IMG/VR virus record: IMGVR_UViG_3300021962_000827
Location: 1 to 20,327 of that record
Length of the DNA stretch: 20,327 nucleotides
Source: a virus
Strand: one strand, 5' to 3'
Positions 3,257-20,327 of the stretch are shown piece after piece (position 1 is the first letter of the stretch; each line of letters starts with the position of its first letter). The notes under the pieces are model-generated. The model saw only the letters and a program-made list of their open reading frames with translations, ran no database searches and was not told where the DNA came from. Made by a program: the position numbers and the translations under genes.

Positions 3257-5992
3257 ATGCCAAAATTATATAATGCACTACAGCTTAAAGGTGGAGCAAC
3301 CACAGAATATAATAGAATGGGTACACTTACCCAACCTATACAATTTTTGTTAGCTTCACAAAAGAATGAACAATGGGGTGCTTGGAATCTTGACTGGTTA
3401 GAGATGCAAGGTCTAAAACAAATTAGACGTAATGCAAGAAGACTGTTAAAGAATTATAAACTAGCTAATGGTATTATAGATAAGACAGATTATATTGTTG
3501 AAGAAGATAATGAATATGCTGAACTTATTGATACTCTTACAAAAGAAGATGTATCTGCATTTGAGTTAAAATTCTTTCCTATTATTCCTAATGTTATTAA
3601 TATTCTTACAGGAGAATTTGCTAAAAGAAATGATAAGATTACTTATAGAGCAGTAGATGATACTTCATTTAATGAGATGCTTGATAAAAAGCGTGGTATG
3701 ATTGAAGAAACTTTAGTGTCATATGGTGAACAGATGATGCAACAGACTATTGACAGTATGGGATTAAATCCTAAAGATCCTGAACAAGCTCAAAAAGCTC
3801 AAGAAATGATGTCGCCTGAAAGCATTAAATCATTACCTCAGATTGAAGAATTCTTTAAAAAAGATTATAGATCTATGGTAGAACAATGGGCAGGTCATCA
3901 ACATGCTGTTGATTCTGAAAGATTCTATATGAAAGAACTTGAGAATATGGCATTTAGAGATATGCTTATTACTGATAGAGAGTTCTGGCATTTTAAATTA
4001 AATGAAGATGATTTTGATTTAGAAGTATGGAACCCTGTTCTTACATTCTATCATAAATCTCCTGAAGCTAGATATGTATCTCAATCTAACTGGGTAGGAA
4101 GAGTAGACTTAATGACTATATCTGACATTATAGATAGATATGGTTACTTAATGGATAAAGATCAAATGCAACAACTTGAAGCAATTTATCCTGTAAAATC
4201 TGCAGGTTATGCTTTACCAGGTGTGCAAAATGATGGATCATTTTATGATTCTACAAGATCTCATGATTGGAATGTTGAAGGACCTTCATTAGGTATGAGA
4301 CAATTTCTTGCACATAAAGATGCTGTACTTAATACTGGAGATGATATTATATATAGAATCCTAAATGAGTCTGAAGATTTGATGGACTTTAGTAATTATT
4401 CTTTGTTACGTGTAACAACAGCTTACTGGAAATCTCAAAGAATGCTTGGACATCTTACTAAGATTGATGAAGAAGGTATGACACATCAGACTATTGTAGA
4501 TGAAAATTATAAAGTAACTGAAAAACCTATATATGATAATACTGTTATAAAAGGTAAAACAAAAGATACTCTTATATTTGGAGATCATATAGATTGGATA
4601 TGGATTAACCAAGTATGGGGTGGTGTTAAGATTGGTCCTAATAGACCATCATTCTATGGTAACAATGATAACATGGGATTCAAACCTTTATACTTAAATG
4701 TTGAACCACTTAAGTTTCAATTTAAAGGTGACAGTACTTTATATGGTTGTAAACTTCCTGTTGAAGGATCTATATTCCATGATAGAAATACTACATCAAG
4801 AGCATTAGTAGACAAGATGAAACCTTTTCAAATTGGATACAATCTTACTAATAATCAGATTTCAGATATACTAGTAGATGAGTTAGGTACAGTTATTATG
4901 CTGGATCAGAACTCTTTACCACGTCACTCTATGGGTGAAGACTGGGGTAAAAACAATTTAGCAAAAGCATATGTGGCAATGAAAGATTTCCAAATGCTTC
5001 CTTTAGATACATCTATTACAAATACTGAGAATGCATTAAACTTCCAACATTATCAAGTTCTTAACTTAGAACAAACACAAAGATTAATGTCAAGAATACA
5101 GTTGTCTAATTATTTTAAACAACAAGCTTTTGAAGTTATAGGTATTACTCCTCAACGTATGGGTCAGACTTTAAGTCAAGAAACTGCTACAGGAGTTGAA
5201 CAAGCACTTAATGCAAGTTATTCTCAAACAGAAATGTACTTTGTAAATCACTCAGAATACTTAATGCCTAGAGTACATCAGATGCGTACAGACTTAGCTC
5301 AATACTATCATAGTACTAAACCTAGTGTAAGATTACAATATATTACATCTCTTGATGAAAAGATTAATTTTGAGATGAATGGTACAGATTTATTATCAAG
5401 AGAATTAAATGTATTTACTTCTACTAAGGTAAACCAACGTGACATTACAGAAAAAATAAGATCTCTTGCATTATCTAATAACACTGCAGGTGCATCTATA
5501 TATGATTTAGGTAATCTTATTAAAGCAGATTCTCTTGCAGAAATTACACATACTCTTAAAGCAATTGAAGAGAAAGTTAATAAACAACGTCAAGAAGAAC
5601 AACAAGCTCAACAACAAACAGTTCAGATGCAAGAACAAGCTGAAACAGAAAGACAAGAATCTAAACAAAGATTTGATGCTCAAGAGAATGCACTTGATAG
5701 AGAATCTAATGAGCGTATTGCTGAAACTAGAGGAGCTGTTGCTGCAGGTGGTCAAGATTTTAACACAAATAATCAATCAGATTACATTGACACATTAGAA
5801 TATCTAGATAAGAAAAATATTAATAATCAAAATATTAATTTTAAGAAACAACAAGAAATTAATAAACAAGCAAACACAGAAGTTGCTAATAATCTAAAAC
5901 GTCAAGAATTACAAACAAGAGAGAATATTGCTAACAAGCAGGTTCAAATTGCAATGACAAACAAAAACAAATATGACAAAAAGAAGTCATAG
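3257..5992 (+). CDS. Portal protein
   Basis: This 911-residue protein directly follows TerL and precedes the scaffold and capsid genes, the standard portal position. Portals form the dodecameric ring through which TerL pumps DNA. Features include an N-terminal Trp-rich entry (WGAWNLDWLE), a helical core with NVINILTGEFAKRNDKITYR (about 114-133), and GITPQRMGQTLSQETATGVE (629-648), a segment typical of the long wing/stem part of portals in this phage group. From about residue 757 to 911 the chain is almost entirely charged and Gln/Asn-rich (for example RQEEQQAQQQTVQMQEQAET), predicted to be a long coiled coil, comparable to the C-terminal barrel that projects into the head in P22-like phages. 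The length is above the usual 500-750, mainly because of this tail and an insertion-rich core. The call is sure from order, size and motif style. Confidence 0.9.
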   Translation: MPKLYNALQLKGGATTEYNRMGTLTQPIQFLLASQKNEQWGAWNLDWLEMQGLKQIRRNARRLLKNYKLANGIIDKTDYIVEEDNEYAELIDTLTKEDVSAFELKFFPIIPNVINILTGEFAKRNDKITYRAVDDTSFNEMLDKKRGMIEETLVSYGEQMMQQTIDSMGLNPKDPEQAQKAQEMMSPESIKSLPQIEEFFKKDYRSMVEQWAGHQHAVDSERFYMKELENMAFRDMLITDREFWHFKLNEDDFDLEVWNPVLTFYHKSPEARYVSQSNWVGRVDLMTISDIIDRYGYLMDKDQMQQLEAIYPVKSAGYALPGVQNDGSFYDSTRSHDWNVEGPSLGMRQFLAHKDAVLNTGDDIIYRILNESEDLMDFSNYSLLRVTTAYWKSQRMLGHLTKIDEEGMTHQTIVDENYKVTEKPIYDNTVIKGKTKDTLIFGDHIDWIWINQVWGGVKIGPNRPSFYGNNDNMGFKPLYLNVEPLKFQFKGDSTLYGCKLPVEGSIFHDRNTTSRALVDKMKPFQIGYNLTNNQISDILVDELGTVIMLDQNSLPRHSMGEDWGKNNLAKAYVAMKDFQMLPLDTSITNTENALNFQHYQVLNLEQTQRLMSRIQLSNYFKQQAFEVIGITPQRMGQTLSQETATGVEQALNASYSQTEMYFVNHSEYLMPRVHQMRTDLAQYYHSTKPSVRLQYITSLDEKINFEMNGTDLLSRELNVFTSTKVNQRDITEKIRSLALSNNTAGASIYDLGNLIKADSLAEITHTLKAIEEKVNKQRQEEQQAQQQTVQMQEQAETERQESKQRFDAQENALDRESNERIAETRGAVAAGGQDFNTNNQSDYIDTLEYLDKKNINNQNINFKKQQEINKQANTEVANNLKRQELQTRENIANKQVQIAMTNKNKYDKKKS

Positions 5993-6034
5993 CGTTATAG
6001 TGTCAGAAATGTAAAAATAAATATTGCACCATAT

Positions 6035-6051
6035 TAAATCTTTAAGATTTA
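6035..6051. repeat. 17-bp perfect palindrome in the portal-scaffold spacer
   Basis: TAAATCTT-T-AAGATTTA is an inverted repeat with 8-bp arms and a single central base. It lies in the 109-base spacer 5993-6101, one of the longest gaps in the head module. It could be an operator for a dimeric regulator or part of a promoter for the scaffold and capsid genes. It is too short-looped to be a useful RNA hairpin and has no T-run behind it. I see no clear Bacteroidota -33/-7 promoter pair (TTG...TAnnTTTG) around it, so the function is open. Confidence 0.4.
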
Positions 6052-6101
6052 TTTGGTAGATTATATATGAAGAAGAACAGAAAACAATTTAACACAAAAA
6101 C

Positions 6102-7355
6102 ATGAGTACAGAAAACAAATCGCAAGTAGAAGATGTTACTATAGATAATATAGATGACTTTTTACCAATGCCAGGAGCAGACAGTGTTGTAACTTCAGAT
6201 GAAGATGGTGATAAACCAAATTTATTTAGTCCAAACAGCAAACCAGTGAATCTTGATTTTTTAGATAAATCTGAAGATGATGAAGAAGATAAAGATGATG
6301 CTGATGCAGCTCTTGATGAATTAGATACTACTCTTAAAACAGGTGATGATCTTGATGAAGATGATGAACCTAAGAAAAAAGGTGGTAGATCAAAAACAGA
6401 TAAAAGTGGTTTAGTATCATTCTTGAAAAAAAGAATTGAGAACAATGAAATGTTTGCTTTTGATGACTATGATGAATCTAAACAATCACTTGATGATTAC
6501 TTAGGATCATTATCAGAAAAAGATGTAGAGGAATTGTGGACAGCTAATGTGGATAATTTGAAACAAGAAGTTGCTGCAAAAACTCCAAAAGAGTTCTTTG
6601 AAAGTTTACCTGAAGAATTACAATATGCTGCAGAGTATGTTGCTAAAGGTGGACAAGATTTGAAAGGTTTATTTAGAGCATTAGCTCATGTAGAAGAAGT
6701 TCGTGATTTAGATGTTAGAGAACCAGAACATCAAGAAATGATTGTTAGACAATATTTGCAAGCAACAGGTTTTGGTAATGGTGATCAAGAATTAATTGAA
6801 GATCAAATTCAAGAATGGGCAGAAGGTGGTAACTTATCTAAAAAAGCAAATCAGTTTAAACCAAAGTTAGATGATTTGCAAGAAGAAATGTTACAAGGTA
6901 AACTTGCACAACAAGAACATTTTAAACAACAACAACAGGCTAAAAAAGAAGCATACATGTCTAACATATATGAAACTTTAAAACCTGGGGAATTAAATGG
7001 TGTTAAGATTGATTCTAAAAGACAAAAAATGTTATGGGATGAACTTACAACTGTAAAGTATGAGAGCATCACAGGAAGACCTACAAACATGTTAGGTAAA
7101 CTTTTAGAAGATTATCAATTTGGTAAAGAACCAAGATATGATTTAATTGCTGAAACATTATGGTTACTTTCTGATCCAGAAGATTATAAAGAAAACATAA
7201 GAAAACAAGCTAAGAATGAAGTAGTGGCAGATACAGTCAGAAAACTTAAAACAGAAGAATCAAGAAAGATTTCTTCTTATACAAGAGATGAAGATGAAGA
7301 TATCAAACCTGCTTCTAGAAAGATTTCAAGACAAACAAATATATTTAAAAGATAA
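6102..7355 (+). CDS. Acidic scaffold-like head assembly protein
   Basis: A 417-residue protein sitting between portal and major capsid protein, where scaffolding proteins are normally coded. The N-terminal hundred residues are extremely acidic and low in complexity (about 56-90 are mainly D/E, for example EDDEEDKDDADAALDELD), followed by a KKKGGRSK basic patch. The middle is helical (FFESLPEELQYAAEYVAKGG; GLFRALAHVEEV), with a Gln-rich coil (HFKQQQQAKKEAYM). The C-terminus is basic (RKISRQTNIFKR), as in scaffolds that bind the inner capsid surface by a positively charged tail. No Ser/His protease motif is visible, and no separate head protease lies nearby. The A-rich leader before ATG 6102 has no Shine-Dalgarno sequence. 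The scaffold role is inferred from position and charge layout; an internal core protein is the main alternative. Confidence 0.65.
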   Translation: MSTENKSQVEDVTIDNIDDFLPMPGADSVVTSDEDGDKPNLFSPNSKPVNLDFLDKSEDDEEDKDDADAALDELDTTLKTGDDLDEDDEPKKKGGRSKTDKSGLVSFLKKRIENNEMFAFDDYDESKQSLDDYLGSLSEKDVEELWTANVDNLKQEVAAKTPKEFFESLPEELQYAAEYVAKGGQDLKGLFRALAHVEEVRDLDVREPEHQEMIVRQYLQATGFGNGDQELIEDQIQEWAEGGNLSKKANQFKPKLDDLQEEMLQGKLAQQEHFKQQQQAKKEAYMSNIYETLKPGELNGVKIDSKRQKMLWDELTTVKYESITGRPTNMLGKLLEDYQFGKEPRYDLIAETLWLLSDPEDYKENIRKQAKNEVVADTVRKLKTEESRKISSYTRDEDEDIKPASRKISRQTNIFKR

Positions 7356-7358
7356 CAT

Positions 7359-7374
7359 TAACCTTAATTAAATT
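7359..7374 (+). promoter_or_regulatory. Leader motif TAACCTTAATTAAATT before the capsid start
   Basis: This AT-rich element ends 5 bases before the ATG of the major capsid gene. It resembles the leader elements before the 558-residue structural gene and the zinc-ribbon gene (TAACC[CT]TTAAATATT). It may be a translation-enhancing leader of the A/T-rich type used by Bacteroidota in place of a Shine-Dalgarno sequence. The similarity is partial and the background is AT-rich, so the call is weak. Confidence 0.25.
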
Positions 7375-7379
7375 AAACA

Positions 7380-9029
7380 ATGAGTACACCTGTATTAAAC
7401 AATGGTCTCTTTTTGCGTGATACTACTTATAAAGTTAGCTCGCATGTAGACTCTTACCATTTGCAGAATATGCTTAAGACTTCAGAACCTATGGATTTAG
7501 GACCTGTTGACTTATGGGCAATGACGCAAAAGGTAGAAATGCCTCTTTATCAGATGGCATCTTTTGGTGGTAAAAACACCATTATGGTAGACAATGCTCG
7601 TGGAGAGTACAAATGGCAAACACCTATTGTACAAGATCTTCCTTACATTGTAGAAGATGTTGAACCTACACAGACTTCTTTAGGAGCTGATGGTACAAAC
7701 TTCAAAATCAAAATTAACAGACGTATATTTGGATCTGGTGATATCATCACTTATGACAAATATAAAGGTTTGGAGCTTTACATTGTACCTTCAGAAGACA
7801 TTCTTCCTACAGGAGATGGTTTCATCTATACAGTACAATTAGTAAACAACAACAACACTGCAACATTAGACAAAAAGTATCTTAAACCAGGTACTAAATT
7901 CTTCAGAAAAGGTTCTGCAAGAGGTGAGTATGGTGAAAGATTTTCTGACATTGGAGAATTACAGAATGGTTTTAGAGAGTACTACAACTTCGTAGGAGGT
8001 GCAGAAGCTCACGTACACTATTCTATTTCTTCTCGTGCAGACATGATGATGAAAGGTGGTCTTAATGCAGATGGTACAGTTCCTGTAACTGAGATCTGGA
8101 GATCATTTGATAAAAACTTAGACCCATCTATCACTAAGATTGATGATATGGTTAAGTCTATGGGTAAAGAATGGATCAAAAAATCATATGATAATGGTAA
8201 TTTGACAAGATCATTCGTTACTAACTTGGAAGCAGCTCACTTATCTAAAGTAGCTAATGACATTGAGACTTACTTAATGTGGGGACAAGGTGGTAGAATT
8301 AAACAAGATGGTCCAGATGATATTAGATTATCTGTTGGATTGTGGTCTCAATTAGATAACTCTTATAAGAGAATCTATAACAAAGGAACTTTCAACTTAG
8401 AGTTGTTCCGTTCTGAGATCTTTAACTTCTACAATGGTAAAGTTGAATTCAAAGGACCAGATCCAAATAGACAAATCATTGTTCAAACTGGTATGGCTGG
8501 TATGAGAATGGTAAATGAAGCTATTAAGAAAGAAGCTTTCTCTGGAACTATTGGTGGATCTACTGGATTAATTGCTAACATGGATCAGTCTGGTGTTGGT
8601 GCTATCTCTGGTAAAAATGCAATGGACTTGAATTTTGGATTTGCTTTTACAAGCTACACAATCCCATTCTTGGCAAATGTTAAATTTGTATTGAATCCTG
8701 CATTTGACAATGTTCATACAAATGATATTGAGAATCCTATCATTGATGGATATCCATTATCATCTTACAACTTTATTGTATTTGATATCACTGACAACAC
8801 TAATGACAACATCTTCTTGTTGAAATTATCTTGGGATAACCAATTAAAATGGTTCTACCAAAATGGTACTATGGATTATATGGGTAGATCTCAAGGATTT
8901 GCTTCTTCTGGAAACTTCAATGGTTATAGAGTATTTATGACTCAAACTATGCCAAGTATCTGGGTAAAAGATCCAACTAAAGTATTAAAAATTGTTATGA
9001 GAAACCCTGTTACTGGTGGTTCATTCTAA
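7380..9029 (+). CDS. Major capsid protein (HK97-fold inferred)
   Basis: A 549-residue protein directly after the scaffold-like gene and followed at once by a strong intrinsic terminator, as expected for the most abundant virion protein. It has an N-terminal arm (SSHVDSYHLQNMLKTSEP), mixed alpha/beta composition, and the segment SIGLWSQLDN-type core near 330 (read as SVGLWSQLDNSYKRIYNKGT), plus a C-terminal beta-rich end (KVLKIVMRNPVTGGSF). There are no cysteines visible, in contrast to the tail genes. Codon use differs from neighbours: C-ending codons for Asn, Phe, Asp, Tyr and Ile (AAC, TTC, GAC, TAC, ATC) are clearly more frequent, a common sign of strong expression. The HK97 fold is family knowledge applied by context, not something read directly from a motif. 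Size fits crAss-like capsid proteins of about 500 residues. Confidence 0.88.
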   Translation: MSTPVLNNGLFLRDTTYKVSSHVDSYHLQNMLKTSEPMDLGPVDLWAMTQKVEMPLYQMASFGGKNTIMVDNARGEYKWQTPIVQDLPYIVEDVEPTQTSLGADGTNFKIKINRRIFGSGDIITYDKYKGLELYIVPSEDILPTGDGFIYTVQLVNNNNTATLDKKYLKPGTKFFRKGSARGEYGERFSDIGELQNGFREYYNFVGGAEAHVHYSISSRADMMMKGGLNADGTVPVTEIWRSFDKNLDPSITKIDDMVKSMGKEWIKKSYDNGNLTRSFVTNLEAAHLSKVANDIETYLMWGQGGRIKQDGPDDIRLSVGLWSQLDNSYKRIYNKGTFNLELFRSEIFNFYNGKVEFKGPDPNRQIIVQTGMAGMRMVNEAIKKEAFSGTIGGSTGLIANMDQSGVGAISGKNAMDLNFGFAFTSYTIPFLANVKFVLNPAFDNVHTNDIENPIIDGYPLSSYNFIVFDITDNTNDNIFLLKLSWDNQLKWFYQNGTMDYMGRSQGFASSGNFNGYRVFMTQTMPSIWVKDPTKVLKIVMRNPVTGGSF

Positions 9030-9100: not shown

Positions 9101-9325
9101 ATGAGTACAAAAATTGTTAAAGGAAGATTAATATCTGTAGAAAATAAAGATAGACTATTTGGTTCTGCTTCTCAGTATATAGCTGTTCAAGTAGAAGATG
9201 CTGATGGAAGTAATGAAAGATGCATTTTATTTACTGATGCAGAGATTTTAAAAGCTGAAGAAAGAGCAAAAAGAAATCCTGAAGATCTTACAGAAAAAGG
9301 ATTCTTTACAAATTTAATTGATTAA
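9101..9325 (+). CDS. Small conserved phage protein, unknown
   Basis: A 74-residue protein that starts 11 bases after the capsid terminator. It looks beta-stranded at the N-terminus (KIVKGRLISVENKDRLFGSA; YIAVQVEDADG; RCILFTDAEI), followed by a charged helix (AEERAKRNPEDLTEKG) and a short hydrophobic end (FFTNLID). The fold impression is a small sheet plus helix. No catalytic or metal motif is visible. Its place right behind the capsid gene suggests a capsid-associated or decoration role, but that is only a guess from context. I have a memory of similar short proteins near capsid genes of Bacteroidota phages. Confidence 0.65.
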   Translation: MSTKIVKGRLISVENKDRLFGSASQYIAVQVEDADGSNERCILFTDAEILKAEERAKRNPEDLTEKGFFTNLID

Positions 9326-9342
9326 TAACAAAAAAAGAAATC

Positions 9343-9468
9343 ATGGCAGGAAAAAACAAGGCAGCTATGAGCAATAAGATTGTGGTTAAGAAACCAACAT
9401 CTGCTCAGTCAGGTCCTAAAACTCAAAAACTTGCAGGTGCTACACCAAGTAAGTATAAAAAATGCTAA
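9343..9468 (+). CDS. 41-residue very basic small protein
   Basis: ATG at 9343, preceded by an A-rich leader, opens a 41-codon frame: MAGKNKAAMSNKIVVKKPTS, then AQSGPKTQKLAGATPSKYKK and a terminal Cys. It has no acidic residue and about ten lysines, so it should bind nucleic acid or an acidic protein surface. Codons resemble those of the capsid gene. The last bases contain A6 (9457-9462), and the stop overlaps the ATG of a second short frame (ATGCTAA). It belongs to a set of small basic proteins around the 338-residue gene. Function unknown. Confidence 0.6.
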   Translation: MAGKNKAAMSNKIVVKKPTSAQSGPKTQKLAGATPSKYKKC

Positions 9469-9560
9469 ATTTGCAATATGCAAATAAAGAGATACCCTCT
9501 CTCCCTGAAGTTAACAGTGTTAACTACGCCAGCAGCAATGCTGGTACTCCTAAGATGTAA
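9462..9560 (+). CDS. Possible 32-residue ORF overlapping the basic peptide gene
   Basis: ATG 9462 overlaps the previous stop by seven bases (ATGCTAA) and opens 32 codons: MLNLQYANKEIPSLPEVNSV, then NYASSNAGTPKM. It could be made by coupled re-initiation, or reached by a -1 slip on A6 at 9457-9462, which would fuse it to the upstream basic peptide (about 72 residues). Bases 9489-9560 are 46% G+C, higher than the surrounding genes, and the same bases can form RNA hairpins, so the segment may be a structured RNA and not a protein gene. There is no homology that I recognise. Confidence 0.4.
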   Translation: MLNLQYANKEIPSLPEVNSVNYASSNAGTPKM

Positions 9561-9582
9561 CAACCTTGACGTGGTTTAGGAG
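9510..9582 (+). other. Cluster of three potential RNA hairpins
   Basis: Three inverted repeats lie in a row: GTTAAC-AGT-GTTAAC (9510-9524), CCAGCA-GCAA-TGCTGG (9529-9544, a 6-bp stem with a GNRA-type tetraloop) and CTCCTA (9547-9552) with TAGGAG (9577-9582), the last enclosing AACC/GGTT (9562-9565 with 9573-9576). No T-run follows, so it is not a terminator. The first two and the left arm of the third fall inside the 32-codon ORF; the third spans its stop. It lies 59 bases before the start of the 338-residue gene. It may be a structured leader, an mRNA processing site or a small RNA. No known RNA family is recognised and no tRNA features are present. Confidence 0.45.
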
Positions 9583-9641
9583 CTTTGAACTAAGAGTTAC
9601 AAAAAACAGAGAAAAGAAAAAAACAACTTAAATTATTACAG

Positions 9642-10658
9642 ATGGAAATCACAATGATAGACAAGCATCAGTCTTTAAAAAGAAGCAGTTCTTTGACAAT
9701 TAGACCTTTTGTTGATAATACACATGACAACATGGGGTTAGAAAAATACCAAATGGTATTATTTGAAGGTGTATTTCATGAAGAACAAATCATATGTCTT
9801 GAGAATAATGGTATCAAAAGATACATTACAGGATTAAATGAATTTGCTCCAGAGATTAAAAACATGTCTCCTGATGATAGAGATGCTGCAATTAAAGATA
9901 TTAGAAGTACTGTAGCACAATTAGAAAGAGAATTAGCTTCTAATGTATTAGATGTTAATGATCCAGAATTTTGGAATAAAGTAAAATTACTTAGACCAGA
10001 TAATGATGAGTTTTGGGGTAAGATAGTAATGAGATTTAGTAATGATCCTGTATATCTTGATCCTGCAAATGATCCTTATGATCTTATTAAACTAAGAGCA
10101 ATTGAGCATGGTGGTTTTAGTATTGTTGCTAAATCATTAGAATTTGCAAGAAAAGAAGCACCTAAGTTTAAATTTTATTTAGACAAGTTTGAAGAAACAG
10201 CTTCTATTAAAACTGAGCTTAAGAAAATTAAAAATAAAGCTTTTGCTGAGTTACAAAAAATGTTTGACAAGAATGCTAATAAGTTATTCTATGTATGTAA
10301 AGTGATTGATGCAAACTCAACACAATACAAAAAATCTACACCACTTGATGTGTTGTATGATAACATGGATAAATTCATTAGTGGTGAAACTGAAGATAGA
10401 AACAAACGTCTAACAGCACAAAAATTCTTAGATGTTTCTGCATTAGATATGGAAACTCTTAAATTAAGAGCAGTTATCAAAGATGCTAATTTCTATAAAT
10501 TGATTGCTACTAGAGGTGATGGTAATATTTACCATATGAAATCAGGAGCAATGCTTGGTAAAAATCCTTCAGATATTTTACTATATTTAAAGAATCCTTT
10601 GAATGAAGATATTCTTTTAGATGTTGTAACAAATACTGAAAAGTACTGGAATATATAA
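9642..10658 (+). CDS. Conserved virion-region protein, unknown (338 aa)
   Basis: A 338-residue protein between the small basic genes. ATG 9642 is used as start; an in-frame ATG at 9654 (MIDKHQSLKRSSS) is also possible. It begins with a polar stretch, then WNKVKLLRPDNDEFWGKIVM (about 111-130), a helical charged middle (RKEAPKFKFYLDKFEETASI; KTELKKIKNKAFAELQKMFD) and a C-terminus with YHMKSGAMLGKNPSDILLYL. No enzyme motif, signal peptide or membrane segment is visible. Its place between capsid and connector genes suggests an internal head, cement or neck protein. The sequence has a familiar look from large Bacteroidota phages but I cannot assign a family. The leader upstream holds the hairpin cluster and an A-rich run (9601-9641). 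Confidence 0.7.
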   Translation: MEITMIDKHQSLKRSSSLTIRPFVDNTHDNMGLEKYQMVLFEGVFHEEQIICLENNGIKRYITGLNEFAPEIKNMSPDDRDAAIKDIRSTVAQLERELASNVLDVNDPEFWNKVKLLRPDNDEFWGKIVMRFSNDPVYLDPANDPYDLIKLRAIEHGGFSIVAKSLEFARKEAPKFKFYLDKFEETASIKTELKKIKNKAFAELQKMFDKNANKLFYVCKVIDANSTQYKKSTPLDVLYDNMDKFISGETEDRNKRLTAQKFLDVSALDMETLKLRAVIKDANFYKLIATRGDGNIYHMKSGAMLGKNPSDILLYLKNPLNEDILLDVVTNTEKYWNI

Positions 10659-11704: not shown

Positions 11705-12139
11705 ATGGATTTTACATCAAACTATAAACTAAAAAGACAAGGATCATCTGGTGGTGATTCTTTAGAAGCTAAGACTTCTGCTTTAGTTTCAGAACTTATG
11801 AATGCTGCAACAAGTATTCACAAAATGCATTTAAAGATTACAGGTCTAGGATCATATGCTGGACATAAAGCTTTGAATGAATTGTATGATGCACTACCTG
11901 GACATGCTGATGATTTAGCAGAAGGTTTTCAAGGTGCTGCAGAAAAGTTATTAACATATGAAGATTTTGCTCCAAGAATTTTGAATTCTGTAGAAGAATC
12001 ATTATCTTATTTAAGAGAATTGACAACACAAGTTACTTCATTGCAACAAGTTATGCCATACTCAGAAATTGTAAATGATCTTGACATGGTAAAATCTACT
12101 ATAAATAGTATCAAATACAAACTATTATTTTTAAAATAA
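11705..12139 (+). CDS. Dps/ferritin-like four-helix protein
   Basis: A 144-residue protein with the residue pattern of Dps. HLKITGLGSYAGH (42-54) has His spaced 12 apart; H67-A-D69-D-L-A-E73 follows, with D69 15 residues after H54 and E73 four after D69. E. coli Dps has the same set at H51, H63, D78 and E82, and also a His two residues before the Asp. Dps D67 (H63+4) is replaced by N58 here. The hydrophobic pattern predicts four helices: 21-45, 52-80, 85-110 and 115-142. It is shorter than E. coli Dps (167) and lacks its Lys-rich N-terminal tail, although KLKRQ is present at 8-12. Dps proteins bind iron, detoxify peroxide and can compact DNA. It may instead be a purely structural relative (for example the DUF5856 type, from memory). 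Its place in a virion operon is unusual. Confidence 0.6.
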   Translation: MDFTSNYKLKRQGSSGGDSLEAKTSALVSELMNAATSIHKMHLKITGLGSYAGHKALNELYDALPGHADDLAEGFQGAAEKLLTYEDFAPRILNSVEESLSYLRELTTQVTSLQQVMPYSEIVNDLDMVKSTINSIKYKLLFLK

Positions 12140-12169: not shown

Positions 12170-13846
12170 ATGTCTTATTTTCCACATGCCTACCAGAAGG
12201 CTTTAGTAGCTACATCGTTAGTGACTGCATCTGGTACTGCAAGTTCTGCTTTAACTGCAGGTCAACTTGCATTAATTAATGCACAAACAAACTTGTCTTG
12301 TGACTTGTCTGGTGCAACAACTTTAAATTATAACAACACTTCTACAGGTGTACCTTTAGCTTATTTAGCACAAGGTAGTTTTCACACTGTAGATAAATTG
12401 GGACCTTTTCATGGAGGTTACAAAGAGTCTGTTAAATCAAAAGGTATTAACCCTAAGTACATTAGTTCATTTACTTTAAGTGAACCATCTAATCCTATTC
12501 AAGATATTCAACAAATCAGTGCTACTGTAGGTTGTAATGTTACTTGTAATACTACTTACAGATTAAGATTAGATCTTAAAGGATCTCCTGCATTACGTTT
12601 CTTAACTCACAATGCTTACTTTACATTAGATGCTAACACAGGATGTTGTGATTCAAGTTCTAATAATGTAGATCCAAACATTGTATTGTTAGGATGGGCA
12701 GATAGATTGGCTTTATATCCAACTGTTAAAGATTTTGTACAAGGAACTGTATGGAATAGAGTATTAAACTCTGGCACAGGTACAGGTGTTACTGCAACAA
12801 CTACTCAACAATATTTAACTGTTGGTACAGCTACAGGTATTGCTGCTGGTCAAAGAGTTGTATTTACTCCTACAACAGGTTCTGTATGTACTGTTGGTAA
12901 TCTTAGAGGAAACACTTTTACAGTTACTACTGTAGCTCCTGTTGGTTTGTTTTCTGTAGGACAAGTTCTTACTGGAACTGGTGTTGCTGCTGGTACAACT
13001 ATTACTAAATTAGTTAGTGGTGGTGGTGGTGCAGGTTCTGTATTTGAAGTAAGTATTGCACATCCTACAATTGTAGATGCATCAGTTAATAATATTAGCT
13101 CTACATCTCCTGTAACTGCATATGTTAAATCTTCTTATACAAGTGGAACTAATATTACTTTAGTTGCTGCAACTACAATTAATACTCCAAGTACTACAGA
13201 TATTACTGCATTTACTACTGGTATTATTGCTAATACTGCTGTTAAATTTTATAAAGCTATCACAACTGCAGCATATACTCCTTTAACAGGAGGAACAGAT
13301 CCTGATACAGTTGAATCTTTCTTAGAAATTGTTGGAGCTTATGTAGATACTACTTTTGGTGATTGTTCTTTCTCTCCTAGAGATCACGTAGAATATCAAC
13401 CAATTGAAATCTATTCTTCAGTTACAGCATTAGATCCATTAGGAAACCAATGTTTAGCTGCATGTTTTGTACCTGCTGAAGTTCAACAAGCTGTACAAGG
13501 TAGAGGATTTGGTGAAACTGTTCTTAGAGAATTAATTTTAGCTAAGAGATACCAACAAGAACCATGGATCCAAGATCCACGTTTAAGAGAGGTTCTTGAT
13601 TATAATCCTTTTGGTGAAGTAACACGTGCAAGTAAATACCTTATTTACAACTTGTTACATAGTGTTCCACGTAAAGCTAATCCTTCTGGAATGATGGATA
13701 ATGATCAATATTTGATTAGAATCTTTGTACCTATTACAAGTACTGTTGCTGCAGCTAGAACATCAATGTCTGCTTTTGAAACAAACATTGACAACTGGAT
13801 GATAACTGCTGGTAATTTAGATAATAGATTTAAATTGTTACCATAA
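12170..13846 (+). CDS. Large structural protein with Ig-like insert, unknown role
   Basis: A 558-residue protein with a conserved-looking N-terminal part (FHGGYKESVKSKGINPKYIS, about 80-99) and C-terminal part (GRGFGETVLRELILAKRYQQ, about 441-460, then EPWIQDPRLREVLDYN). Between them, about 195-390, lies a Thr/Ser/Gly/Val-rich beta segment; VGQVLTGTGVAAGTTIT (about 261-277) followed by GGGGAG is the pattern of an Ig-like repeat common in phage structural proteins. The middle therefore seems a surface-exposed insertion into a conserved core. Position after the connector, with its own terminator, suggests an abundant neck, tail-tube-like or head-decorating protein. I do not recognise the core family with certainty. 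No coiled coil or signal peptide is visible. Confidence 0.65.
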   Translation: MSYFPHAYQKALVATSLVTASGTASSALTAGQLALINAQTNLSCDLSGATTLNYNNTSTGVPLAYLAQGSFHTVDKLGPFHGGYKESVKSKGINPKYISSFTLSEPSNPIQDIQQISATVGCNVTCNTTYRLRLDLKGSPALRFLTHNAYFTLDANTGCCDSSSNNVDPNIVLLGWADRLALYPTVKDFVQGTVWNRVLNSGTGTGVTATTTQQYLTVGTATGIAAGQRVVFTPTTGSVCTVGNLRGNTFTVTTVAPVGLFSVGQVLTGTGVAAGTTITKLVSGGGGAGSVFEVSIAHPTIVDASVNNISSTSPVTAYVKSSYTSGTNITLVAATTINTPSTTDITAFTTGIIANTAVKFYKAITTAAYTPLTGGTDPDTVESFLEIVGAYVDTTFGDCSFSPRDHVEYQPIEIYSSVTALDPLGNQCLAACFVPAEVQQAVQGRGFGETVLRELILAKRYQQEPWIQDPRLREVLDYNPFGEVTRASKYLIYNLLHSVPRKANPSGMMDNDQYLIRIFVPITSTVAAARTSMSAFETNIDNWMITAGNLDNRFKLLP

Positions 13847-13870
13847 TAATTTAAAATGTATAAACACTAT

Positions 13871-13900
13871 AGAGGAGACATTAATTTGTCTCCTCTTTTT
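13871..13900 (+). terminator. Rho-independent terminator closing the 558-aa gene
   Basis: GAGGAGACA (13872-13880), loop TTAATT, TGTCTCCTC (13887-13895), then five T. The 9-bp GC-rich stem is perfect, and A13871-T13896 can extend it. It lies 25 bases after the stop, within the 113-base gap 13847-13959. The rest of that gap (13901-13959) is AT-rich, with no clear -33/-7 promoter pair, although transcription of the tail-module genes likely starts there or by read-through. Confidence 0.92.
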
Positions 13901-13959
13901 GTTTTATATCAAAATTTTTTGTAAATTCTTATTGTAATGATGTTAATACTGAATCAATT

Positions 13960-14544
13960 ATGGCAATTAAACACACACTTGCATTAGACATACCAGATAC
14001 AGCTTGTGAAAATATACTAAGAATATGGGATGCATCTGTATATGGTGAAGGACTGGAAGTAGATTGTCCTAGACTTGACATATACTTACCAGGCTTTTCA
14101 ATGCCTATTTACTATACAAACAATACAACTATAGATCCACCAACTGTTTTAGAACCAGGTTTTGTAAAAAACTTTTCTACAGGTGATTTAGGAATAACTC
14201 ATCCAAATGATGATCCAGGATCTTTTCCTGATGGTTTGTATACAATCAGATATAGTGTGTCACCTAATGAAACTGTATTTGTTCAATATTATCATCTAAG
14301 AGTGACTCACTTAATGAATACTTACTATAGAGAGGTATGTAAAATTCAATTACAAGCATGTGAACCTACAGCTGAACAACATCAAAAAATGCATGACTTA
14401 AGATATATTAAGATGTATATTGATGCAGCAAAAGCTAAAGCAGAGTATTGTCATGCTCCTGTTCAAGCAACTGAAATGTATGTGTATGCTGAGAAACTTC
14501 TTGCTAAGTATTTAACTGGGTGTTGCGTAACATGTAATAAATAA
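13960..14544 (+). CDS. Conserved phage protein, unknown (194 aa, first gene of tail module)
   Basis: A 194-residue protein. The N-terminal two thirds are beta-rich (LRIWDASVYGEGLEVDCPRL; GLYTIRYSVSPNETVFVQYY), and the last third is a helix (LRYIKMYIDAAKAKAEYCHA) ending in a Cys cluster GCCVTCNK. Seven Cys are visible, with CKIQLQAC at about 127-134. This beta-then-helix layout with DGLYTIRYSV looks like a recurring Bacteroidota phage family, whose function I do not know. It is the first gene after the second terminator and is followed by small Cys-rich genes and tail proteins, so a baseplate or tail-assembly role is plausible by context only. No catalytic motif is visible. Confidence 0.65.
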   Translation: MAIKHTLALDIPDTACENILRIWDASVYGEGLEVDCPRLDIYLPGFSMPIYYTNNTTIDPPTVLEPGFVKNFSTGDLGITHPNDDPGSFPDGLYTIRYSVSPNETVFVQYYHLRVTHLMNTYYREVCKIQLQACEPTAEQHQKMHDLRYIKMYIDAAKAKAEYCHAPVQATEMYVYAEKLLAKYLTGCCVTCNK

Positions 14545-14556
14545 CCTTTAAATATT
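14542..14556 (+). promoter_or_regulatory. Leader motif TAACCTTTAAATATT
   Basis: A 14-of-15 match to the leader element at 12148-12162, and it also ends 7 bases before the ATG of the gene it precedes (zinc-ribbon gene at 14564). Its first three bases are the stop codon of the 194-residue gene. Function unknown; a translation leader is the simplest idea. Confidence 0.35.
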
Positions 14557-14563
14557 AAAACCA

Positions 14564-14695
14564 ATGGTACAATGTAACAACTGTCAATCTACATTAAGTT
14601 GTGGATGTCAACAAAGAGTAGCATCAAATGGTGCAAATGTATGCGCAAATTGTATTACAGCATATGAAGCAAAATTAATAAGTCAAAAGAAATAA
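14564..14695 (+). CDS. 43-residue zinc-ribbon-like small protein
   Basis: ATG 14564 opens 43 codons. Cys pairs are C4-N-N-C7 and C27-A-N-C30, with C13-G-C15 between: MVQCNNCQSTLSCGCQQRVA, then SNGANVCANCITAYEAKLIS and QKK. Two CxxC knuckles separated by about 20 residues are the signature of a small zinc ribbon; the extra CxC could make a second ligand set. The type is known in small phage and host proteins that bind nucleic acid or partner proteins. It lies in the tail module, separated by four bases from the next gene. Zinc binding is an inference from spacing. Confidence 0.7.
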   Translation: MVQCNNCQSTLSCGCQQRVASNGANVCANCITAYEAKLISQKK

Positions 14696-14699
14696 CTAA

Positions 14700-14924
14700 A
14701 TGGATGCTCTTATTCGTATAAATGAAGTATTTGCTGAAACTGTATATGCTACTTACAAAAGAAAGCGTTATGGTTTAAAAACATGTTCTGCTCTTATTGA
14801 TGAAGAGCTTGCAGATGATTTACGCAATCTTCTCATACGTGGTAGAGAAATGGAAACTTGTTCCTGTGCAATGCCAGGATTTTGTACATTATCTAAAGTT
14901 GAAGAAAAAATAAACACAATATAA
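14700..14924 (+). CDS. 74-residue Cys-containing phage protein, unknown
   Basis: It begins four bases after the previous stop and shares one base with the next gene (TAATG). The N-terminal part is helical (IRINEVFAETVYATYKRKRY), a charged middle follows (DEELADDLRNLLIRGREMET), then CSCAMPGFCTLSKVEEK. Four Cys are visible, including the CSC pair and the GFC motif. The length and the tight coupling to the 534-residue structural protein suggest a chaperone or assembly partner, but no family is recognised. There is no transmembrane segment or signal peptide. Confidence 0.6.
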   Translation: MDALIRINEVFAETVYATYKRKRYGLKTCSALIDEELADDLRNLLIRGREMETCSCAMPGFCTLSKVEEKINTI

Positions 14925-16528
14925 TGGGAACACCTATAACTACTCCAGGATCAAATAGAGATAATTGTCCTAAGATATCTACATCATGTGTGATATGGCA
15001 AGGACCAAATATTCCTTGTATTAATTTATGTGCAGGTGATTCTATTGATGAAGTTGTATTTAAACTTGCAACTTTATTATGTGATGTTACAGAAAATGTT
15101 CTTGATGTTACAACTTTAGAATTTGCATGTTTAGTAGAGTCAGGTGCTGAAAATCCTACTACTCTTTTACAAACGTTACAAGCTATTATTACTAAAGTAT
15201 GTAGTATAGATTCTAATGGTACTACTGGTGGTGGAAGCACTACTAATAAAACAGATGGAGCTACATCAGATCCTATAGTGTATTTACCAGAATGTTTATA
15301 TTTTCAACAAGATGGTGATACTGTTACAGCATTACCTCTCACAGAATATGCTGCATATTTAGCTACAACTATTTGTACTATTATTACAGATATTAGTAAC
15401 ATTAATTTTACAATTAGTAATCTATCATCTAGAGTTATAGAATTAGAAATAACTGTACAAAATTTAAGTACTTACACATATGAAATATATGTGACTTCTC
15501 AATGTGCAAGTGCACCTACATCAGGTCAAACATTGTTAATACAAGATGCTTTTGCAAATTTAGAAGCTTCTTTTTGTAATTTATTAGGAACTGTTGGATT
15601 TTCAACATTATTAATAAATGCAATAAATGCTCAATGTCCAGGATTAAGTACTGCACCGCAGTTGTCAGATTCTGAACTTATAATGAATGATATTACAGGA
15701 TGGGTAGAAACACCAACTACAATTGCAGATAGTATAAATAATTTATGGTTAACAGTATGTGACATGCGTTACAAAGTTGCAAACTTTTTTGAGGCACCTG
15801 TTGTATTACCTTGTGTTTTAGCAGTTCCTGAAAATGTAACAATTACTACTATTGGAACAACATATTCTACTGTAACATGGGAAGAACCAAGTTATGCTGG
15901 AATAGAAATACCAATTGGATATAGAATTGAAGTTTTTGAATGGACTGGCACAGCTCCTACAGGACCTTCTCTATATGATACAACATTATCTACAGCTTTT
16001 CTTACTTTTAATATACCTTCAACTGCATTAACTATAGGTCAAGATTATGTTGTTTATATACATGCAATTTATTCTTGTGGAGAATCAAATGGTGCAAAAG
16101 TAATAAGTGAATTAATAGTACCAACAATATTATATAAAATAGAAGTTATAGAATCACCAGAAGCAGATACAAGTGTAGACTGTGTTGAAAGTGGAGTACC
16201 TGTATCTTATACTGTAAATAATACTAAAACAACAGTTACTCTTGCTAATGCTTCAACAGGTTTACCAGTAACAAATACTACTGGTTCAACTATAAATGTT
16301 ATAGTAAAATATCTAGTTACAAGTTGTGCATTTTTTGGACCAGTGTATGATCAAGTTACAATAGGAATACCTAATGGTGCAGATCATGGTGACTATATTT
16401 ATGAAGCTCAAACATATACTAATTGTGGTACAGCATTATGTACTACTGTAAGTAAAAATTTAGATTGTGGTGTTTCAACTGGTTTGATTAACGCAGAATT
16501 TGATGATACAATGATACCAACTTGCTAA
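14924..16528 (+). CDS. Cys-rich FN3-containing tail protein
   Basis: A 534-residue protein with N-terminal CVIWQGPNIPC (22-32) followed by C36 and C53, the cysteine-framed module also found in two downstream genes. A Gly/Ser/Thr linker lies near 105-115. Residues about 147-187 form a coiled-coil-like stretch (ISNINFTISNLSSRVIELEI), typical of trimeric tail fibres. VPENVTITTIGTTYSTVTWE begins a fibronectin type III-like domain (about 301-395) with the W of strand B and a Tyr near the end (YVVYIHAIYSCGES). A further beta-rich domain closes the protein (about 396-534). More than 20 Cys are present in total. It is probably a baseplate, adapter or fibre protein that binds the next proteins or host surface carbohydrates. 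It overlaps the upstream gene by one base. Confidence 0.7.
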   Translation: MGTPITTPGSNRDNCPKISTSCVIWQGPNIPCINLCAGDSIDEVVFKLATLLCDVTENVLDVTTLEFACLVESGAENPTTLLQTLQAIITKVCSIDSNGTTGGGSTTNKTDGATSDPIVYLPECLYFQQDGDTVTALPLTEYAAYLATTICTIITDISNINFTISNLSSRVIELEITVQNLSTYTYEIYVTSQCASAPTSGQTLLIQDAFANLEASFCNLLGTVGFSTLLINAINAQCPGLSTAPQLSDSELIMNDITGWVETPTTIADSINNLWLTVCDMRYKVANFFEAPVVLPCVLAVPENVTITTIGTTYSTVTWEEPSYAGIEIPIGYRIEVFEWTGTAPTGPSLYDTTLSTAFLTFNIPSTALTIGQDYVVYIHAIYSCGESNGAKVISELIVPTILYKIEVIESPEADTSVDCVESGVPVSYTVNNTKTTVTLANASTGLPVTNTTGSTINVIVKYLVTSCAFFGPVYDQVTIGIPNGADHGDYIYEAQTYTNCGTALCTTVSKNLDCGVSTGLINAEFDDTMIPTC

Positions 16529-16546
16529 TAATTAAAAAATAAAAAT

Positions 16547-17347
16547 ATGTCTTGTACAAACCCTAATTGTAATGAAGGATGTGGATGCAATAATTGTTGT
16601 CCACCAGTTACACCTCCAACACCACCAGTACCACCAACATGTACAGGAACAGAGTGTGAGGAATTATATGATGGCGCATGTGTTCAATACACAGGTCCTT
16701 CTATAACATGTCTTGGTATTACTACTAATACTAGTTTAAATAGTGTCATTCAAGCAATGGCAAATAAACTTTGTGAATGTTGTAAAACACCTAAGTGTAC
16801 AAATCCTATAACAAGATTTGTTGATTTAGTTTTTGATATATATTATTCAATTACAAATGCAGGTAGATCAGCTTCAATATCTGAGATTATATATGAAATA
16901 CTTAATCTTGGCTATATTATTAAAAAATGCGAATACTGTTGTCCTGATGGTCAAGCATACATGTTTACAATAAAAGATGTGAATAATGGATTCTTAAACA
17001 CACTTAGAGAATTACTTTATTCAGGTGCTGAACAAGTTACAGAAAACTGTGTAAATTGTGAATCAGATTTTATAGTATCAGGAACAGCTCTAGCGGCATT
17101 ACAAGATATAACACCTTTTAGTGTTACTGATATTACAGAATATGGAGGATTCAATAGTAGTTCTGCATTGTCTGTATTAACAAACTCTTTAAAAAATTAT
17201 CCTGAAGCGTTGATTTCTGCTTTTTTAGAATATTTCATAGACAATGATGTTTTAATTATAAGTTGTAATACAGAAACAGGTGATGTTTTTATTGGAAATA
17301 TGAATGCTTTTACAACTTACACAACTTATTTAAATCCAAATCCTTAA
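16547..17347 (+). CDS. Cys-rich tail protein with CVQYTGP module (266 aa)
   Basis: The N-terminus is very Cys-rich (CTNPNC..GCGCNNCC, 3-18) and followed by a Pro/Thr hinge (PPVTPPTPPVPPT, 19-31). The shared module CVQYTGPSITC (45-55) is followed by C76 at the same distance as in the FN3 protein. About 20 Cys occur in 266 residues, 14 of them in the first 80. The C-terminal part (about 83-266), starting CTNPITRFVDLVFDIYY, has YCCPDG and a closing YFIDNDVLIISCNTETGDVF, and resembles the next protein, suggesting duplication. The Pro hinge after a Cys knot fits an extended fibre base. It is likely a tail attachment or adhesin part; enzymatic activity is not indicated. The A-rich leader AAAAAATAAAAAT precedes the start. 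Confidence 0.65.
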   Translation: MSCTNPNCNEGCGCNNCCPPVTPPTPPVPPTCTGTECEELYDGACVQYTGPSITCLGITTNTSLNSVIQAMANKLCECCKTPKCTNPITRFVDLVFDIYYSITNAGRSASISEIIYEILNLGYIIKKCEYCCPDGQAYMFTIKDVNNGFLNTLRELLYSGAEQVTENCVNCESDFIVSGTALAALQDITPFSVTDITEYGGFNSSSALSVLTNSLKNYPEALISAFLEYFIDNDVLIISCNTETGDVFIGNMNAFTTYTTYLNPNP

Positions 17348-17359
17348 AATTATAATATT

Positions 17360-17956
17360 ATGAGTCAATGTTTAAATCCTATTGCTGCATATTTTGACAG
17401 AATGATAGATCTTGTGGAAGCAGGAACTTTTGCAACTATAAGTGATGCTGTATCATCAGGTAATAATCCTTTTCTAGAAATAACTTCAGAAAACAATGGT
17501 ACATATTGTTGTCCTGATTGTTCTTTGTATGGTATTACTACAGATATAACTATAGTAAAAGCAGTTACTGAATTTTCATATTCTGAAAGTCTTGAAAATT
17601 GTTGTTTTAATTATACAACAAACATAGAAGATATTTCTAATGTTAATACTGTGTTAGGTCATAGACCTAAAATATGTTGTAATAGCTTTTCAGGATGTTC
17701 TTCTAAATTAATAGCTTTACATCAAAAATATAAAGATTCTCCTGGAGGTGCTGTTTCTAATAATATATTATATGAATTTGGAACTATGAATGGTGATTCT
17801 TATGCATGTGTTATGGTTGATTATATTAATTCATTAACAAGTGATATTTACAAAACTGATATATTGAATGTTTTTAATAAAGATGGTTTTGCTGTTTTTT
17901 GTTATGATAATACAGTAATGGCAGGAACATTTAATGGTTTTAAAAACTGGTGGTAA
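17360..17956 (+). CDS. Cys-rich tail-module protein paralogous to the preceding one (198 aa)
   Basis: It starts MSQCLNPIAAYFDRMID, matching CTNPITRFVDLVFD in the C-terminal part of the preceding protein, and shares YCCPDC, an ENCC element and a related end (FNKDGFAVFCYDNTVMAG). The CVxYTGP module is absent, so this looks like the core domain without the N-terminal module. Eleven Cys occur in 198 residues. The C-terminal region has SYACVMVDYINSLTSDIYKT and ends in NGFKNWW. Function unknown; it may be a chaperone or co-factor of tail assembly or a small receptor-binding subunit. The start lies 12 bases after the preceding stop, with CCTTAAAATTATAATATT as leader. Confidence 0.6.
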   Translation: MSQCLNPIAAYFDRMIDLVEAGTFATISDAVSSGNNPFLEITSENNGTYCCPDCSLYGITTDITIVKAVTEFSYSESLENCCFNYTTNIEDISNVNTVLGHRPKICCNSFSGCSSKLIALHQKYKDSPGGAVSNNILYEFGTMNGDSYACVMVDYINSLTSDIYKTDILNVFNKDGFAVFCYDNTVMAGTFNGFKNWW

Positions 17957-17973
17957 TAAAAAAATAATAAACA

Positions 17974-20327
17974 ATGTATCCAAATAATAATTGCACTGAT
18001 TGTAGCAACTGCCCTGATCCTATCACACCACTACCATTACCAAATGTATATGGTCAATGTGGTGACACTTATGATTTAGATTGTGTTATTTACACAGGAC
18101 CAGATAATGATTGCTTAGGTATAACATCAGGTATGCCTGTTACAGAAGTATTTTCTATATTACAATCTGAAATGCAATTATGTGATTGCTGTTCTGCTGT
18201 ACCTCAAAACTGTGTATTATCAGATTGGGGACCTTGGGGAGAATGTACTGCTTGCACTTATGATGAAAATAATGTAGCAACATGTGTTAGATCTCGTAGA
18301 AAAACTGTTATAACTCCAGCATCTAATGGAGGTATTGAGTGTGGTCCACAAGTTGAAACTGGAACAGTTACCTTACAACCAGTATGTTTTACTTTTGGTA
18401 GTGATATATGTGAATCTGCTCCAGATGGAACACAAGTTATAGGAAGAGCAAAATGTAGTTACAATAATAAACCATATTATGAATTTACAGTTTGTGGAGC
18501 TAATCAAGTTATTTGGTTTAATAGTACTGATAACTTATGGTATCTTACAGATACATTAGGTGTAGGTGATTCTGAAAGCACTGTTTTAAATAACAATGGT
18601 GGTGATTATCCTGTATCTAATACTACTACTCAAATTTGGCAAAATAGATTAGATAAAGGAAGTATTAATATTTTACAATCTTCATTAACTACATGTCCAG
18701 AATATAAAATATGTTTTCATACACATATTACCCTTGAAGGTAGAACATATGATTTTTATAATTATATGGCTCCTGGTCATACTGAAACAGAAAGTAATAA
18801 TCACCCTGTTTATTTATATTATATTACTATAGGAAGTGTAACTTATACTATTAATGTTTATTTTGACATTCTTACTTTAAAATGGGAAGGTAAAATAAAT
18901 AGTGGTAGTGGTGATCCTACTATATCAACATTATCTGATACAGGTCTTTATCCTGTTGGAACTTGGACTCCTGATCCAACTGATCAAACTAATTATATGG
19001 TAGCATCTACATTAGGAGAACCTTGTACACAACCTGCAAATGTTAATTGTGTATTAGGTGATTGGAGTGCTTGGGGTCCTTGTATTGGTGGATATGAAAC
19101 AAGAACTAGAAGTATTGTAACACCTGCATCAGGTAATGGAACACCTTGTGGACCATTAACAGAAACAAGAACATGTGCTGCTGCTGTATGTGCTTCTCCA
19201 ACAGCTGTTACTGCTACAGTATCTGGAACAAGTGTTATTGTATCATTTACTCCTGCAGTAGGTGCATCAACTTATAATGTTTCATATACTACTAATGGTG
19301 GCGCAAGTTACACAACTGTTAACAGTACTGCTTCTCCTATAACAATAACTGCAAATTTAGCATGTGCTACAACATATTCAGGTTGGATTGTTACTAATTG
19401 TTTAAATGGTGTTGTAAGTTCACAAGTACCTTTTTCTATTACTACTCCAGCATGTGTTCCTGCATTATTATGTGCAGGTACAACTACTAATATAATTAGT
19501 GGTAACTTTAATTCACCACAACTTAATGTATTAAAAATTGATAACACAACAGCTCAAATAAATGGATCTAACCCTGTAGTTACAACACAAGTTTCAGCAG
19601 AAAGTAATACAAGATTTTGGACAAATGAATTAAGTAATGATGGTTTATTTTTAGCAGGTAGTCCTCTTTTTTTTACTGATGCATTAGGCATGCATTATAG
19701 TGGTGGAGTTATTAAGTTAAAATGTACATCTCCAAGTACATCATTTTTTGGAGAAATTAATCCTACATTTGTAAGTGTAGATCCAACAAATGCAGGATTT
19801 CAAGTTTCAATTTCTTCAAGTGATAATCAACCTGTTATTCGTGCTATTAAATATGATAAAATTAATAATAGATTATATGTTGGTGGACATTTTGATAAAT
19901 ATAAAAATGCAAATTGTTCTCATAACTTAGTATGTTTAAATGCAACTACAGGTGATATAATACCTAATACAAGTTTTAAAATTGGAATAGCTGGAATATA
20001 TCATTCTACATTAACTTCTAATACTAATGGTGGAGTTTATGATATTCAAATTGATGGTAATGGAAAAATTATAGTAGGAGGTACTTTTGATACATATACT
20101 AATACTTCTAATGTACCTACACAAATTCGTAACATTGTAAGATTAAATTTTGATGGTACAATAGATAATACATTTTCAGTAAGTGCAACAAGTTTTTCAG
20201 CAAATCAATCTCTTAATCCTCCTTTTCAATCTAATTTATCTTCAGTTGTAAAAACTATATATGTTGATCCTAATAATAATTATTTTGTAGGTGGTGGTTT
20301 TTATCAATACAAAGGTACTACTGCAAA
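17974..20327 (+). CDS. Large Cys-rich adhesin: TSP1 repeats, FN3, beta-propeller (3' end outside window)
   Basis: ATG 17974 opens 784 complete codons with no stop before the window ends. Order: a Cys-rich start (C7, C10, C13); the shared module CVIYTGPDNDC (37-47) then C70; a first thrombospondin-type-1-like repeat (80-138: W85-x2-W88-x2-C91, C104-x-R-x-RR, C123, C138); an unassigned beta-rich domain (about 140-350); a second TSP1-like repeat (359-406: W364-x2-W367-x2-C370, RTR, C392, C401, C406); an FN3-like domain (about 408-488); and a beta-propeller from about 495, with blades LFLAGS, LYVGGHF, IIVGGTF and YFVGGGF spaced 65-75 residues. The last is the DUF5122 pattern. The layout is that of a receptor-binding tail protein. 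Cys-framed TSP1 domains are unusual for phages. The A-rich leader has no Shine-Dalgarno sequence. Confidence 0.8.
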   Translation, partial: MYPNNNCTDCSNCPDPITPLPLPNVYGQCGDTYDLDCVIYTGPDNDCLGITSGMPVTEVFSILQSEMQLCDCCSAVPQNCVLSDWGPWGECTACTYDENNVATCVRSRRKTVITPASNGGIECGPQVETGTVTLQPVCFTFGSDICESAPDGTQVIGRAKCSYNNKPYYEFTVCGANQVIWFNSTDNLWYLTDTLGVGDSESTVLNNNGGDYPVSNTTTQIWQNRLDKGSINILQSSLTTCPEYKICFHTHITLEGRTYDFYNYMAPGHTETESNNHPVYLYYITIGSVTYTINVYFDILTLKWEGKINSGSGDPTISTLSDTGLYPVGTWTPDPTDQTNYMVASTLGEPCTQPANVNCVLGDWSAWGPCIGGYETRTRSIVTPASGNGTPCGPLTETRTCAAAVCASPTAVTATVSGTSVIVSFTPAVGASTYNVSYTTNGGASYTTVNSTASPITITANLACATTYSGWIVTNCLNGVVSSQVPFSITTPACVPALLCAGTTTNIISGNFNSPQLNVLKIDNTTAQINGSNPVVTTQVSAESNTRFWTNELSNDGLFLAGSPLFFTDALGMHYSGGVIKLKCTSPSTSFFGEINPTFVSVDPTNAGFQVSISSSDNQPVIRAIKYDKINNRLYVGGHFDKYKNANCSHNLVCLNATTGDIIPNTSFKIGIAGIYHSTLTSNTNGGVYDIQIDGNGKIIVGGTFDTYTNTSNVPTQIRNIVRLNFDGTIDNTFSVSATSFSANQSLNPPFQSNLSSVVKTIYVDPNNNYFVGGGFYQYKGTTA

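Follow-up and report, generated by a model that had tools for sequence, protein, structure and literature searches.

The thrombospondin type 1 (TSP1) domain is best known from the adhesion proteins of animals and parasites. Among described TSP1 domains, those of F-spondin, R-spondin, complement C6-C9, and MIC2 (PF19028) resemble the two phage repeats reported here in profile, in the W-x2-W and R-x-R motifs, and in the predicted three-stranded fold. Unlike those domains, the repeats occur in a phage, lack the CxxxCG cysteine, and are mildly acidic. One phage protein already carries the TSP1 name in UniProt (A0A6J5N7M8, from an uncultured Caudovirales phage). It shares 53% identity with a repeat of our phage, with a TM score of 0.85, but is a fragment whose name was assigned automatically only.

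In phi-crAss001, the tail fibre gp22 docks on the tail hub by its N terminus, and disulfides occur in the tail assembly (PMC10172136). The protein analyzed here would follow the same logic, with a docked N terminus and an exposed outer part, although TSP1 was not reported in gp22 and the likeness is one of logic rather than sequence. Adhesins with Ig-like domains in crAss-like gut phages have been shown experimentally to bind epithelium, and these Ig-like/BACON proteins likewise consist of modular, exposed beta domains encoded near structural genes; they differ in that their domains are Ig-like rather than TSP1 and in that they belong to gut phages (PMC13370021). We found no description of TSP1 in phage tails in a search of open papers, and a tblastn search of 50,697 phage records, with the low-complexity filter on, returned no match. 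What appears to be new is the occurrence of derived TSP1 repeats in a modular adhesin of a crAss-like phage, the TSP1 domain itself being known already.

The phage fragment and the architecture of the putative adhesin

The window, by which we mean the whole stretch of DNA analyzed, is the 20,327-base IMG/VR virus record IMGVR_UViG_3300021962_000827. Judged from its genes, it is a fragment of a crAss-like phage (Crassvirales), because it encodes a crAss-like major capsid protein (positions 7380 to 9029, plus strand; PF23898 Crass_capsid, 7e-30), a large terminase (1043 to 3247, plus strand; phrog_6681, 1.2e-61), and a portal protein (3257 to 5992, plus strand; phrog_6547, 2.9e-85). CrAss_Ring_1 and CrAss_Ring_2 were found in a syntenic relative (L099). 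The closest phage record by portal and capsid was Leptolyngbya phage Lbo-JY46, whose portal is 34% identical to that of the window (E 6e-106), and crAss-like phages of the gut, Cellulophaga, and Flavobacterium were more distant. The host of Lbo-JY46, the nearest record across positions 3257 to 9029, is cyanobacterial and not a member of the Bacteroidota. From the kinds of relatives, rather than from sample records, we infer that the clade is aquatic. A small open reading frame (ORF) amid the structural genes (11705 to 12139), which is kept in relatives, has a DUF5856 match (1.3e-13) as well as a weak signal of the ferritin-like type.

The ORF of interest occupies positions 17974 to 20327 on the plus strand and encodes at least 784 amino acids (aa). 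Its 3' end is cut by the contig end, homologues with the same domain order being 986 aa (L098) and 879 aa (L099) long. It opens with a Cys-rich N-terminal domain (aa 1 to 76; 17974 to 18201) that contains the motif CVIYTGPDNDC, followed by TSP1 repeat 1 (aa 78 to 135; 18205 to 18378), which has a long first hairpin with extra cysteines. The domain of about 210 residues that had been predicted between the repeats is present as a segment of 219 aa (aa 138 to 356; 18385 to 19041) with no assigned fold, which is beta-rich in a low-confidence model and whose homology is restricted to L098 and L099 (32% identity). An internal duplication of this segment was considered and rejected, as its score was reached by 14 of 500 shuffles for the window and by 57 and 220 for the relatives. 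TSP1 repeat 2 (aa 357 to 406; 19042 to 19191) is followed by an FN3-like domain (aa 407 to 494; 19192 to 19455) and by an incomplete DUF5122 beta-propeller (aa 495 on; 19456 to 20327; PF17164, 8.7e-8) that runs on in both homologues. Thus, the propeller of the original prediction is well matched, and its FN3 domain is backed by a fold match in a low-confidence model (3b83_C, 2.2 Å over 93 columns) and by weak sequence matches (phrog_4971, 3e-4; 3mpc, E 0.13). The full-length model had a pLDDT of 51 and was drawn on for the FN3-like stretch only.

Two of the three ORFs directly upstream, all on the plus strand, have an N-terminal motif in common with the putative adhesin (C[VI]x[YW]xGPxxxC). 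The first (14924 to 16528) carries it as CVIWQGPNIPC together with a match to an FN3 domain. The second (16547 to 17347) carries it as CVQYTGPSITC and is 40% identical to the N terminus of the putative adhesin over 47 aa (5e-6). The third (17360 to 17956), read as an ORF, contains cysteines and has no assigned function. The motif common to the putative adhesin and these two neighbors suggests a similar mode of attachment for all of them. We propose that the Cys-rich N-terminal domain is a virion anchor: this short region would hold the adhesin on the virion, and the two neighboring proteins with the same domain would probably sit alongside it. A search for a sequence link from this domain to any solved anchor found none. 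A Cys-rich tail protein would not be odd in crassviruses, given the disulfides in the phi-crAss001 tail assembly (PMC10172136).

TSP1 identity and derived form of the repeats

The motifs from which the repeats were originally recognized, namely W-x2-W-x2-C, R-x-R, [VI]TPAS..G..CGP, and terminal cysteines, are all found in both repeat 1 (QNCVLSDWGPWGECTACTYDENNVATCVRSRRKTVITPASNGGIECGPQVETGTVTLQ) and repeat 2 (VNCVLGDWSAWGPCIGGYETRTRSIVTPASGNGTPCGPLTETRTCAAAVC). The TSP1_spondin profile PF19028 matches the ORF over two stretches with 59.3 bits (E 4.4e-16), above its curated cut-off of 41 bits. In searches of the record alone, repeat 2 on its own scored 44.1 bits (6e-13) and repeat 1 scored 32.0 bits (3e-9), which is under the cut-off; against the phage TSP1 profile, repeat 1 reached 67.5 bits. 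The assignment to TSP1 by profile thus holds for PF19028 and not for PF00090 (TSP_1), which gave 17.8 bits in the window protein against a curated cut-off of 21.6 but exceeded the cut-off in relatives. A profile built from 15 phage repeats retrieved solved TSP1 domains in the PDB with E values down to 7.7e-11. Across 69 distinct phage repeats, W-x2-[WY]-x2-C is present in 60 and R-x-[RK] in 65.

Structure prediction bore out the TSP1 fold for repeat 2, and repeat 1 yielded no good model, its support coming from sequence and homologues. The AlphaFold model of repeat 2 (53 repeats aligned) has three strands and a pLDDT of 88.4, and the best 50 PDB matches listed were all TSP1-domain proteins, with TM scores up to 0.77. 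These fold matches have modest E values, none better than 7e-3, owing to the domain length of only 50 residues. For repeat 2, both checks put forward with the original prediction, the profile search and the structure prediction, came out in favor of TSP1. The shortness of the domain, the abundance of cysteines in the protein, and the PF00090 score under cut-off would be compatible with a resemblance that arose by chance or convergence. We consider this extremely improbable in view of the PF19028 match (E 4e-16 here and 330 bits in a relative carrying eight repeats), the predicted TSP1 fold, and an identity of up to 73% to bacterial repeats across the whole domain.

The phage repeats are nonetheless a derived form. 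The CxxxCG cysteine that follows W-x2-W-x2-C is present in 0 of 69 distinct phage repeats versus 6 of 7 comparable bacterial repeats, so we do not file the phage repeats under the canonical six-cysteine subtype. In most of them the first hairpin is also about four residues shorter, a form for which complement C8 alpha offers a precedent, its C-terminal repeat having a similarly short hairpin. The branch of repeat 1 near the window has instead a longer hairpin with extra cysteines.

A fixed gene slot with exchangeable content in related phages

Searches of phage records and IMG/VR with the window's own peptides found no direct relative of the whole putative adhesin or of repeat 2, and relatives were reached via the terminase and via the repeats of relatives. 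In these relatives, the adhesin gene is followed by d422, d190, CrAss_Ring_2, CrAss_Ring_1, and a muzzle-like protein. The conserved gene right after the slot (L099, 14254 to 15522) has a weak metallophosphoesterase match amid tail genes. Genes in the slot keep the Cys-rich N terminus, with or without TSP1, and the downstream part is exchanged, consisting of one to five TSP1 repeats or of other modules. TSP1 exceeded the cut-off in 5 of the 50 records sampled by terminase similarity, many of which are too short to reach the slot; of 13 records with a readable slot, 5 carry TSP1 and 8 something else. In a second sample of 80 loci gathered by d422, which includes near-duplicate contigs and others shared with the terminase sample, TSP1 was present in 22, every time in the ORF bearing the N-terminal domain. 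Replacement modules included collagen (L128), Fib_succ_major (L130 and L136), and DUF4832/DUF4874 (L135). The terminases of L135 and the window share 88% identity; in this relative (L135, 1351 to 4506), the DUF4874/DUF4832 unit takes the place of TSP1 in the slot gene, close to its N-terminal end.

Receptor-binding proteins usually have a conserved attachment end and an outer end that changes fast and recombines. Judged from sequence comparisons, the slot protein evolves in the same way: between close relatives, neighboring proteins are 94 to 98% identical versus 39 to 59% for the C-terminal part of the putative adhesin, and repeat numbers differ. For L100 versus L101, identities were 95% for g194, 96% for Ring_2, 84% for the N terminus, and 39% for the remainder (3 versus 5 repeats). 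The corresponding values were 98%, 97%, 86%, and 49% for L100 versus L115 (3 versus 2 repeats) and 94%, 96%, 95%, and 59% for L102 versus L114 (4 versus 3 repeats).

Gene position and the pairing of a conserved head with a variable end support the earlier view of the protein as a phage adhesin. We conclude that the ORF of this crAss-like phage, which we take to be aquatic, probably encodes a modular tail adhesin, with the TSP1 repeats lying within an exchangeable, exposed arm. Behind the N terminus, this arm would consist of the TSP1 repeats, the beta-rich segment, the FN3-like domain, and the beta-propeller, and the adhesin would be located in the virion, where it would contact the host. It is unlikely that the protein is instead a fibre of the capsid surface, of the kind that phi-crAss001 also has (gp21 and gp29; PMC10172136), as the slot directly precedes the ring/muzzle gene cluster, although gene position is weak evidence on position in the virion.

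Origin and possible function of the repeats

The closest cellular sequences found are TSP1 repeats from bacterial metagenome-assembled genomes (loci L122, L123, L125, and L126). Up to 73% identity to these, across the whole domain, points to common descent and excludes convergence, so that of the two origins first put forward, horizontal or convergent, common origin with cellular TSP1 is the one that stands. Unlike the phage repeats, 6 of 7 bacterial ones have retained the CxxxCG cysteine, and the bacteria that carry them are, as far as known, unrelated to the phage. An animal source is not favored by the sequences, the nearest found being bacterial and other virus repeats in a comparison that lay outside eukaryote genomes. 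Phage and bacterial repeats intermingle in the repeat tree, which, being weak and built on so short a domain, indicates neither a donor nor a direction. Bacteroidota were considered as the donor and rejected (no match above the cut-off in 395 genomes). Among the sampled bacteria, genomes with such repeats are rare, 1 of 199 and 3 of 77 being positive in two other phyla, counts that each include a genome already known to be positive and used as the starting point. We conclude that the phage repeats share descent with bacterial repeats and that related phages gain, lose, and multiply them.

TSP1 repeats were also encountered in another phage group, linked to the crassviruses by a crAss_MUZ match in one member (L105, 2e-8). 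There, large muzzle-like tail proteins contain four repeats (L105, 5654 to 10990; 1,778 aa) and eight repeats (L107, 4316 to 10999; 2,227 aa). Tentatively, derived TSP1 may be an expandable recognition module that aquatic crAss-like phages employ at two tail sites, the adhesin slot and, in this other group, the muzzle-like protein (as in L107), and thus a recurrent attachment domain of phages. A further viral contig, L118, with no crAss matches in the stretch read, encodes a TSP1 protein that retains a CxxxCG-like cysteine (9266 to 10186) and, nearby, a 1,383-aa protein with a DUF5122 propeller (13757 to 17908).

Most likely, the repeats would bind some component of the host surface, for example its polysaccharide or one of its proteins, whether by direct contact or by holding other domains in position. 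The slot repeats have a mean net charge of -2.4 and those of the window 0 and -2 by a crude measure, and this mild acidity does not favor heparin-like ligands. Glycan binding in the manner of animal and apicomplexan TSP1, as suggested at the outset, finds no support in this charge. A possible reading, though a rather doubtful one, is that the repeats serve chiefly as rigid spacers, which segments of FN3 or collagen could equally provide, and that the propeller or the middle segment performs the recognition. The variable number of repeats, the substitution of collagen or other modules in the same slot, and the lack of basic charge would fit such spacers. Two observations point the other way: the sequences of the repeats themselves vary, and the slot protein of L102, at 294 aa, comprises the N-terminal domain and four repeats with almost nothing after them (separate ORFs follow). 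By analogy with the Ig-like adhesins linked to epithelial binding (PMC13370021), the repeats could also bind a target other than the host, such as an algal or particle polysaccharide, and so keep the phage in the habitat of its hosts. Algal virus proteins also match the TSP1 fold, as this reading would allow, but we regard it as improbable.

A host-contacting adhesin with TSP1 repeats in its exposed arm, the reading we prefer, would extend a classic adhesion domain to proteins of the tail region in a phage order of very high abundance, as a modular part whose repeat number differs between close relatives. TSP1 without its usual third cysteine bears on the respective shares of disulfides and Trp-Arg stacking in stabilizing the fold. 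If the repeats bind hosts, they would provide a handle on host choice in uncultured aquatic crAss-like phages.
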